In this document: positions 10,217 through 21,832 of the stretch, piece by piece
How positions within the stretch are numbered: position 1 is the first letter of the stretch
How the letters are laid out: each line of letters opens with the position of its first letter
Source: a virus
Length of the DNA: 22,542 bases
IMG/VR virus record: IMGVR_UViG_3300023179_000550
Coordinates: 1-22,542 of that record
Strand: one strand, 5' to 3'
Position numbers and translations under genes: made by a program
The notes under the pieces: generated by a model
The model's input: only the letters and a program-made list of their open reading frames with translations
Database searches by the model: none
Told to the model about the DNA's origin: nothing

Positions 10217-10498
10217 TTAATTAACTGCACTTACTTTAAACACAATTGCACTGATATTTTCGCCATTAATCTCCACCGACTGGAAACCTGGTACGCAAAC
10301 CAGGCTAATTCCTCTAGGGGCAGTATATCCGCTAGCAATGGCAATAGCCTTTACAGCTTGGTTTACTGGTCCCGCACCTACGGCACGGATTTTACAGCTA
10401 CCTTTTTCATAGATAGCATGGGCAATAGCAGACGCGACTGACTGCGGGCTGCTTGAGGCGCTTACGCGCAGTACTGATTCGTCTTGTGATTCTGACAT
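10217..10498 (-). CDS. SpoVS-family protein
   Basis: The 93-residue product matches SpoVS over nearly its whole length. The diagnostic core is SSPQSVASAIAHAI, then AVGAGPVNQAVKAIAIA, then GISLVCVPGF and a final beta strand, corresponding to the Bacillus SpoVS pattern (SSPxSVAGAL...AIGAGALNQAVKAVAIA...LICIPAF). SpoVS is a small Alba-like alpha/beta protein affecting sporulation and septation in Bacillus and Deinococcus/Thermus relatives; its biochemistry is unsettled and nucleic-acid binding has been proposed. The length is normal for the family with a short acidic N-terminal extension. Its role in a phage is unknown. ATG 10498 has GAAGG upstream; a 62-bp gap separates it from the DUF1599 gene. 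Confidence 0.9.
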   Translation of the reverse strand: MSESQDESVLRVSASSSPQSVASAIAHAIYEKGSCKIRAVGAGPVNQAVKAIAIASGYTAPRGISLVCVPGFQSVEINGENISAIVFKVSAVN

Positions 10499-21075: not shown

Positions 21076-21627
21076 TTACTTGATGTCAATGACCTTTGGT
21101 TTCTTTTCATCAGGTACATTCTTAAACAGCTTGACTGATAGAATGCCGTCTTTGACGGTAGCAGTTTCTACTTCGTAAAACTCAGCAAGAGCAAAAACGA
21201 GTTTAAAGTCGCGCCCTGCAATGCCGTTATGTACGACTGTTCCGCTGTCTTCTTTTTCTTCTTTTTTACCTTCAATGTTCAACGTCCTTTCCTCGACTGT
21301 GATTGTAAGGTCTTTTTTAGTAAACCCAGCCACAGCGACGTTGATGAGGGTGGAGTCATTTTTTTGGTCAATGATGTCATACGGAGGATAACTTGGCTTC
21401 GTTGCCGAAATCCTTTGAAGTTGCTCTAAGAGCGGGGACCAGCCGATAGACCAACGGTCTAAGCTGGGGAAAAGGTCATTAATAGTAATAACCTTTGGTG
21501 TGGCAGATTTTTGCCACTTTTCTTTTTGACCCCACGGGTCATGTGGATTTGGAACTGCTTTACCCCAAGGGTCGTAGGGGTTAGGGCGTTTGTTCCATTC
21601 ATCCGGACTGCCTGGTAATACATTCAT
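21076..21627 (-). CDS. Small heat-shock protein (Hsp20/alpha-crystallin)
   Basis: ATP-independent chaperone that holds unfolding proteins. The 183-residue product has an N-terminal region with two NPxDPWG repeats (residues 16-34) and an alpha-crystallin domain from about 80 to the end. This includes VAVAGFTKKDLTITVEER, a variable loop, and the ATVKDGILSVKL hallmark (A-x-x-x-DGIL), with a terminal VIDI resembling the IxI tail motif. Hsp20 genes are known in several aquatic phages, where they may protect virion assembly. Expression looks tightly controlled: a -35/-10 promoter inside a 10-bp inverted repeat, a leader of about 135 nt with nested hairpins, and a Shine-Dalgarno AAAGGA in a hairpin loop next to the ATG. 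Confidence 0.93.
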   Translation of the reverse strand: MNVLPGSPDEWNKRPNPYDPWGKAVPNPHDPWGQKEKWQKSATPKVITINDLFPSLDRWSIGWSPLLEQLQRISATKPSYPPYDIIDQKNDSTLINVAVAGFTKKDLTITVEERTLNIEGKKEEKEDSGTVVHNGIAGRDFKLVFALAEFYEVETATVKDGILSVKLFKNVPDEKKPKVIDIK

Positions 21628-21628
21628 T

Positions 21629-21732
21629 GTTGTCTCCTTTAGACGACAACTGTGCTACAATATAGTTAACAATACCTCCCTCGCCTCTCGTAGAAGCGCA
21701 CCTGGGAGGTTTTTTACTGCCCGTAGCACAGT
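21629..21732 (-). promoter_or_regulatory. Structured hsp20 leader: candidate cis-regulatory RNA
   Basis: Three nested or adjacent inverted repeats lie between the promoter and the ATG. A perfect 10-bp pair ACTGTGCTAC/GTAGCACAGT (21649-21658 with 21723-21732) encloses ACCTCCC/GGGAGGT (21674-21680 with 21704-21710), which itself encloses CGCTTCT-ACG-AGAGGCG. A 6-bp hairpin GTTGTC/GACAAC (21629-21634 with 21645-21650) carries the Shine-Dalgarno AAAGGA in its loop and overlaps the outer stem by 2 nt. This suggests control of translation, such as an RNA thermometer, but no known class (ROSE, fourU) is matched. Confidence 0.55.
21668..21716 (+). ncRNA. Possible short antisense RNA to the hsp20 leader
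   Basis: On the plus strand an extended -10, TGCTACAAT (21653-21661), precedes a stem ACCTCCC...GGGAGGT that is directly followed by six T residues (21710-21715). This is a terminator arrangement, giving a putative RNA of about 45-50 nt opposite the hsp20 leader. No -35 is seen. The same bases also form the minus-strand leader hairpin, so the U-tract may be incidental. Confidence 0.3.
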
Positions 21733-21758
21733 ATTTATTTACGGTACCCAATTGGCGT

Positions 21759-21797
21759 ACCTGTATAGATTTTACCAAAAACTATACAGGTTTGCAA
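21759..21797 (-). promoter_or_regulatory. hsp20 promoter with perfect 10-bp operator-like inverted repeat
   Basis: Minus strand: -35 TTGCAA (21792-21797), 17-nt spacer, extended -10 TGGTAAAAT (21769-21777). The inverted repeat ACCTGTATAG / CTATACAGGT (21782-21791 and 21759-21768, 13 nt apart) brackets the -10 exactly, with one arm in the spacer and one over the transcription start. This is the expected geometry of a repressor operator. It does not match CIRCE or HAIR heat-shock operators. Confidence 0.7.
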
Positions 21798-21800
21798 GAT

Positions 21801-21832
21801 ATATAAAGCCCCGCTAGCCGTGACTAGCGGGG
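21801..21832 (-). terminator. Terminator after the NlpC/P60 gene
   Basis: Minus-strand hairpin CCCCGCTAG-TCACGG-CTAGCGGGG (9-bp perfect stem, 6-nt loop) starting 7 nt after the stop, followed by CTTTATATAT. The U-tract is imperfect, but the position and GC-rich stem fit an intrinsic terminator. Confidence 0.65.

Follow-up and report, generated by a model that had tools for sequence, protein, structure and literature searches.

The inverted repeats ahead of the small heat-shock gene hsp20 in the window (the entire 22.5-kb viral record analysed here) are real and belong to two overlapping elements, one per strand. The minus-strand element, the hsp20 leader, is a well-conserved cis-acting RNA. 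The plus-strand element is likely an abiF-type RNA, inserted in the variable loop of the leader and antisense to it. Our best explanation of the locus, which we consider on balance to be the right one, is an orphan abiF-type decoy RNA nested in a remodelled ROSE-related hsp20 leader.

The recognisable genes of the window all lie on the minus strand and include a family A DNA polymerase, RecA/UvsX, WhiB, a pyrimidine dimer glycosylase, and Hsp20 (Table 1). WhiB and the polymerase, whose best listed relatives are from Streptomyces phages (~39% identity), suggest an actinobacterial host for this freshwater phage. A SpoVS-family protein is encoded in this phage as well (10217–10498, minus strand; PF04232, E 4e-29), and a terminator-like hairpin (21809–21832) lies 3′ of the NlpC/P60 lipoprotein gene. 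A tRNA is present 3′ of hsp20 in the relatives L002, L003, L004, and L009; none was found in the window itself. On another viral contig (L020), a permuted tmRNA (327–605; RF04321, 110.8 bits) is located near hsp20.

Table 1 Coordinates of the hsp20 leader, the plus-strand RNA, and the adjoining gene in the window.
Feature	Position	Strand	Description
hsp20	21076–21627	−	183 aa, HSP20 family, PF00011, E 6e-16
P4, Shine-Dalgarno (SD) hairpin	21629–21650	−	GUUGUC/GACAAC, bulged G at 21644, UC/GA, loop UAAAG
Shine-Dalgarno AAAGGAG	21640–21634	−	first half in P4 loop, second half in stem
P3, complement of P2	21649–21658	−	10 bp in the window
P2 strand and possible local hairpin P2a	21716–21732	−	UNCG-like loop, ACUGU-G-C-UACG-G-GCAGU
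P1 (hairpin I)	21743–21761	−	5-bp outer stem, bulged G at 21756, CC/GG, 4-nt loop
hsp20 promoter, predicted sigma-70-type	21769–21797	−	TTGCAA, 17 nt, TAAAAT; TG before −10; 9/12 matches
Extended −10, proposed for the plus-strand RNA	21653–21661	+	TGCTACAAT, read from the sequence; proposed start ~21668
abiF-type RNA	21674–21715	+	ACCUCCC stem, core CGCCUCUCGUAGAAGCGCACC, GGGAGGU, then U run

A first-pass annotation had described three stacked inverted repeats here and read them as a single structured hsp20 leader. The perfect 10-bp repeat (21649–21658/21723–21732) and the 6-bp repeat (21629–21634/21645–21650) are present as described, the 7-bp stem sits within a repeat of 90% identity over 10 nt (21671–21680/21704–21713), and the outer stem does overlap the SD hairpin by 2 nt (21649–21650). 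Both strands fold better than shuffled sequences, the minus strand with a z of −2.93 (1 of 200 shuffles equally good) and the plus strand with a z of −4.55 (0 of 200). Two corrections are necessary. The middle 7-bp stem had been counted as part of the leader; within the 43 leaders aligned below, only the window and L003 have it, and it is also found in L002 and L165, both incomplete leaders. This stem belongs to the opposite-strand element and not to the conserved hsp20 leader. The leader had also been drawn too short, as it reaches the predicted transcript start at ~21762 and gains a further hairpin (P1, 21743–21761). That start, upstream of all the stems, is predicted from a putative promoter. 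Sites of this kind are not enriched in the window (3 observed versus 4.1 in shuffles), and a TATAAT-like box was seen by eye at the same distance before P1 in many relatives. A 15-nt inverted repeat (21759–21791) overlaps the predicted promoter.

Leaders were collected in three ways. Viral loci with an hsp20 relative came from a protein search (55 loci). Scanning for the conserved P2 (P2a) sequence yielded 117 stretches, of which many are due to chance, and scanning for the SD hairpin alone yielded 47. Distinct leaders that passed a filter (43 in number, many originating from the P2a sequence scan) were aligned as A1. The filter required the P1 hairpin (CC N4 GG, with at least 4 of 5 outer pairs), a CTGTGC-like P2, and the SD hairpin core, and did not require P4 pairing. 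L010, L157/L167, and the incomplete L002 and L165 are members by the model R1 and stand outside A1. In these leaders the order of elements is P1, an A/U-rich linker, the P2 strand with its UNCG-like loop, a variable insert, P3, the SD hairpin P4, and the start codon.

Structural conservation was found across the 43 aligned leaders, which bears out the claim of a structured hsp20 leader. Overall, 98.9% of A1 cells are paired, with two-sided changes at 5 pairs (39 cells), as compared to 0–1 pairs (0–2 cells) in a slid-alignment control; these pair counts are not independent proof, because the sequences are related and were partly selected for P1 and P2. A search for compensatory changes, as had been proposed, gave a different answer for each stem: clear for P1, a few for P4, and none for P2/P3. 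P1 is paired in 301/301 cells (100%) with two-sided changes at 3 pairs, although both this figure and the invariance of P2 are partly by construction, since the filter and the scan selected for them. Fairer figures for P1 come from the SD-only places and from the SD-only and protein-search subsets. P1 lies upstream at 46 of the 47 places located by the SD hairpin alone, the remaining one being cut by a contig end, and this result is untouched by the selection of A1. The P1 geometry occurs 50 times in the 881,464 positions of those contigs, about 47 of these being the leaders themselves. Its three two-sided pairs persist in 27 rows from the SD-only scan, and in nine protein-search rows plus the window.

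P4 is paired in 214 of 215 cells (99.5%), with two-sided changes at 2 pairs (5 cells) that rest on four sequences (L162, L151, L099, and L063). For P2/P3, 97.3% of cells are paired, with five C-A mismatches and no two-sided change; P2 is conserved also among rows from the SD-only scan and the protein search. The P2/P3 pairing encloses the variable loop, which tolerates insertions of up to ~100 nt. An HSP20 match was found in the protein downstream of 42 of the 43 leaders, so that the family occupies the 5′ UTR of a small heat-shock gene, as ROSE thermometers do; the exception (L136) is a 58-aa piece at the end of its stretch. Beyond viral contigs, a bacterial pattern scan was run, and among the matches listed only L298 and L268 passed the leader filter; the protein was missing in both, and they were dropped as chance. 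R1 gave no match in 198 genomes of one order, a result that carries no weight because the scan had no positive control.

The leader probably shares descent with ROSE-type RNA thermometers. P1 has the hairpin I geometry of the ROSE_3 (RF02523) consensus, namely an outer stem, a bulged G, and CC/GG, a likeness that comes from our own comparison with that consensus and is not a published defining feature. The first-pass annotation had seen neither a fourU nor a ROSE pattern. The former holds, as the strand opposite the SD lacks UUUU. The latter is half right: the window's family has the hairpin I geometry and, in its SD hairpin, a bulged G, but U(U/C)GCU was not found near its SD, where that strand reads UCGUC. 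Searched at E up to 5, the window gave no match to an Rfam ROSE family. Because the defining motif and the Rfam test both failed, the window's family is called ROSE-related and not a ROSE member.

Distant viral hsp20 leaders retain more of the ROSE pattern. U(U/C)GCU precedes the SD in all 23 that were counted (ids below L386); S-TIM5 (L377), which is outside that list, lacks the motif and has ACGCU. A hairpin-I-like structure is present in 19 of the 23, with no match in L016, L022, L023, and L385. In the distant set hairpin I covaries strongly, 6 of its pairs showing two-sided changes; covariation of the SD hairpin is thin, at 1 or 2 such pairs (one count being on a model-fitted alignment). 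ROSE_3 itself appears below its cut-off of 43 bits at the hsp20 leader in 2 of 11 distant sources (30.2 and 27.6 bits) and in 3 of 10 more (Agrobacterium phage Atu_ph07, 28.0; phage C48C1, 26.8; Synechococcus phage S-SCSM1, 24.8 bits), and unrelated families score about as high in that Rfam list. The leaders with such scores are L020, L039, L378, L383, and L385 (5 of 21 sources, none above the cut-off), and matches to R2, the model described next, occur also in L386–L468. This viral ROSE-like group may deserve a model of its own.

R2 was built from 74 distant viral hsp20 leaders only. Left out of the 84 rows were L399, L416, and L425 (start misplaced), L407 (incomplete), and six that were divergent by eye (L016, L022, L023, L050, L376, and L379); R2 later matched 9 of the 10, L407 being outside the search. 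Across 45 freshwater-family sources, R2 gave 21 matches at E up to 10, of which 19 are at the hsp20 leader (best E 0.0035, 0.0049, and 0.0091), and it missed the leaders of 26 sources. Under default filters the window was not found; switching the filters off made the leader its best match (13.5 bits, E 0.2). R2 matches rest mainly on P1 and the linker, and the SD hairpin is unaligned in several. Of 41 distant loci, R1 matches two, each where the leader is expected (L028, E 0.013; L020, E 1.2). In printed alignments the ACUGUGCU of the window begins where the ROSE strand ACU(C/U)GCU begins, and derivation of P2 from that strand is speculation on our part. In L380 (Synechococcus phage S-T4), the annotated hsp20 start at 824 looks too late; an in-frame ATG at 749 (75 nt upstream) follows a ROSE-like leader and SD, where R2 matches 688–751.

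As for the proposed RNA thermometer, its ancestry is plausible through the ROSE-like first hairpin, but predicted SD exposure responds little to heat. Mean exposure over the 43 leaders, from nearest-neighbour folding, is 0.54 at 5 °C and 0.64 at 60 °C. The same method gives 0.22 to 0.46 for 78 distant leaders. A thermometer argued from folding alone was rejected given this nearly flat curve; the curve neither proves nor excludes a thermometer, since the method ignores the non-canonical pairs on which ROSE elements rely. We regard it as possible, if somewhat doubtful, that the leader is a working thermometer in which heat opens P4 (perhaps also P2/P3) and raises Hsp20 translation. Its place on a small heat-shock gene, the ROSE-like P1, and the bulged G of the SD hairpin, invariant in 43/43 leaders, are consistent with this. 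So is the published behavior of short ROSE elements, described as melting only in the heat-labile hairpin II that carries U(U/C)GCU while hairpin I stays closed (PMC3669281, PMC4166951). The weak modeled response, the location of half of the SD in the P4 loop, and the missing canonical U(U/C)GCU argue against it. The heat response of the leader is unproven.

The outer stem and the SD hairpin had been suggested to compete, and the predicted folds give no support to such competition as a temperature switch: P2/P3 is predicted at ~1 at every temperature, and P4 exceeds 0.5 at 25 °C in 30 of the 43 leaders. A second possible exchange, between P2a and P2/P3, was likewise rejected as an equilibrium switch, with P2/P3 dominating the predicted folds (P2a averages 1–3% at predicted equilibrium). 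Instead of temperature, the leader could respond to a protein or small molecule, as a switch or a binding site (e.g. for autoregulation). Conserved loop sequences (GCCAAU, the UNCG-like loop, and GUCUAAGGA) would suit such a role, as would the ability of the P2 strand to form either P2a or P2/P3, which exclude each other and are both also present in rows found without the P2 sequence. We nonetheless consider it unlikely: at 25 °C all 43 leaders are predicted to form P2/P3 at 0.86 or more and P2a at 0.14 at most, there is no candidate ligand, and R1 at E up to 0.01 matched only at the hsp20 leader among the loci searched.

Within the plus-strand insert, the best Rfam suggestion in the region is abiF RNA (RF03085) at 21675–21710 (26.0 bits, E 0.076 over all families). 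As this score is under the gathering cut-off of 37 bits, we name the element abiF-type and do not file it as a member. The same suggestion was obtained in L002, L003, and L165. abiF RNAs, reportedly described by Weinberg in 2017, have in bacterial genomes the core CGCCUCUY....A(A/U)GCGNACC, which is common to the window; the conserved core nucleotides and the closing stem are both present there. Above the cut-off, abiF RNA occurs in 6 of 394 genomes of the bacterial class of G014, and the pattern CGCCTCTCNNNNAAGCGNACC in 1 of the 394.

A scan of viral contigs for the abiF core gave at least 120 stretches. Among the matches listed, 84 of 110 distinct core matches have 6/6 flanking pairs and 101 have at least 5/6; with 3′ flanks shuffled, the means are 13.5 and 54.7 per 110 matches listed. 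Alignment left the 3′ parts of the shorter abiF rows shifted, and pairs were therefore counted sequence by sequence. The alignment A6 took in 37 of 42 listed loci. It could be argued that the resemblance is due to chance and the insert is an ordinary hairpin, given the score under the curated cut-off and a bacterial 25.9-bit match (G195) without a neighboring Abi_2 gene. We find this very improbable: the exact 21-nt core of the window recurs in six other flank contexts among the matches listed, each with at least 5 flank pairs and with other stems. Scores near 26 bits can also be genuine, since a bacterial match of 26.1 bits (G162) lies 117 nt before Abi_2.

How the abiF-type RNA would be expressed can be partly read from its flanks. 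Its proposed extended −10 overlaps P3 and is therefore partly fixed by the P2/P3 pairing; TGTGCTACAAT is present in 5 of 43 leaders, followed each time by a hairpin and a T-rich run. The promoter scan lists an alternative plus-strand site (TTTAGA-17-TATAGT, 21638–21666). The proposed −10 ends 7 nt before AACA, a motif found 5′ of the abiF RNA in 51 of 111 viral loci among the matches listed and in 269 of 6000 random 12-mers. At its other end, the abiF stem of the window runs into six T and may double as a terminator. The terminator scan does not list this stem, whose loop exceeds the length allowed by the scan. T-rich tails follow 54 of 102 viral abiF loci among the matches listed and 12/12 bacterial abiF RNAs, so that such a tail is not phage-specific. 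The stand-alone gene form of abiF RNA is not general among viral loci. At L530 and L539, the abiF RNA was seen by eye ~200 nt upstream of a major-capsid-like gene, a neighborhood that is likely a place of strong late expression.

The plus-strand hairpin might also act in cis, regulating hsp20 as an antisense RNA or a collision terminator. It lies antisense to the leader behind a proposed promoter of its own, and the same spot in L105, L127, and L139 carries unrelated hairpins with T-rich tails, none of which gave an abiF match. Against this, and in favor of a trans-acting partner, the abiF core recurs with changed stems in other phages, where by eye none of the translated neighbors is hsp20. 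We judge cis action to be quite unlikely. Action in trans, as a decoy, is to us the most likely role, because no AbiF gene was found in the window record or in the three relatives that share the insert.

In C. difficile, AbiF and its RNA make up a toxin-antitoxin pair, the complete pair is known in phages phi027, phiC2, and phiCD2301, and Cas13 is proposed to descend from AbiF, all as described in PMC12373285. Abi_2 is present in 14 of 17 bacterial genomes whose abiF RNA match has an E of up to 0.1 (9 above the cut-off), and in 12 it lies 117–138 nt downstream on the same strand. As that set was found with the Rfam model, a fairer figure comes from bacterial loci fitting the viral search pattern, where Abi_2 is so placed in 9 of 14 and missing at 5. 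This pattern-matched control still contrasts with the viral records. No Abi_2 gene was found in the four records of the window's group (G000, G001, G002, and G011), so that here the RNA is not situated just upstream of AbiF. The same search gave 0 of 40 among viral records with an abiF core, hand-picked and not random from the 111 loci with at least 5 flanking pairs among the matches listed, many of them fragments. By eye, genes 3′ of the viral abiF RNAs resemble ordinary phage genes, such as capsid-like ones. As far as these records show, the abiF-type RNA is likely an orphan antitoxin, and a decoy role against host AbiF is our working hypothesis.

Taken together, we propose the following model. 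The hsp20 mRNA would start at ~21762 and carry the structured leader, with the stable 5′ hairpin P1 probably protecting the mRNA and ordering its folding. P2/P3 would close a domain whose loop accepts insertions, while P4, whose bulged-G stem takes up the second half of the SD and whose loop takes up the first, would tune Hsp20 translation. The insertion in that loop would be an abiF-type RNA gene with its own extended −10, its transcript ended by the closing stem and U run. This RNA may then act in trans as an antitoxin decoy that binds host AbiF (a HEPN RNase) and blunts abortive infection.

A broader reading, which we advance tentatively and hold at slightly less than even, is that orphan abiF RNAs are widespread among phages and serve as an RNA-only counter-defence against AbiF, and that here one was packed antisense in the loop of a rewired viral ROSE thermometer, a single 140-bp stretch thereby serving both heat-shock control and anti-defence. 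If so, the control regions of phage heat-shock genes are ROSE-related and include a rebuilt version that lacks the canonical motif, and phages disarm AbiF with stand-alone abiF RNAs. Both ideas are open to test with small constructs. Phage RNA mimics of type III antitoxins (ToxI-like escape RNAs) and RNA anti-CRISPRs exist, and the proposed logic is theirs, in that the phage brings its own copy of the RNA partner and so neutralises a defence protein under RNA control. The target here would be AbiF, unlike in those systems.

Among the matches listed in the open-licence PubMed Central literature, no phage ROSE-related hsp20 leader or stand-alone anti-AbiF RNA was found beyond a report on cyanophage S-CREM1 (PMC9964418) and a review that restates its abiF sRNA (PMC12197685), and no abiF-type RNA nested in an hsp20 leader was found. 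Like the window, S-CREM1 has an abiF RNA in a phage genome, although its sRNA scores 51.6 bits versus 26 here. The report describes its role as not established, and its text contains neither ‘hsp20’ nor ‘abortive’. RCd22 of C. difficile phi027, as presented in PMC12373285, shares the RF03085 closing stem and core with the window's RNA. Unlike the two-copy RCd22, the window's RNA is a single copy of 36 nt with AAGCG (26 bits); moreover, it has no AbiF gene found with it and lies inside the leader of another gene, on the opposite strand.

For the leader, the closest comparison is with ROSE_3 (RF02523) and the short ROSE-like thermometers of Pseudomonas ibpA, as depicted in PMC3669281. The window leader differs in its SD partner strand, UCGUC in place of U(U/C)GCU and shifted by ~2 nt, in having half of its SD in a loop, in the lack of an Rfam call, and in the extra P2/P3 domain and variable insert between the two hairpins. 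Like them, it belongs to a small heat-shock gene, places a 5′ hairpin with the hairpin I features noted above ahead of the SD hairpin, carries a bulged G in the latter, and leaves the start codon free.
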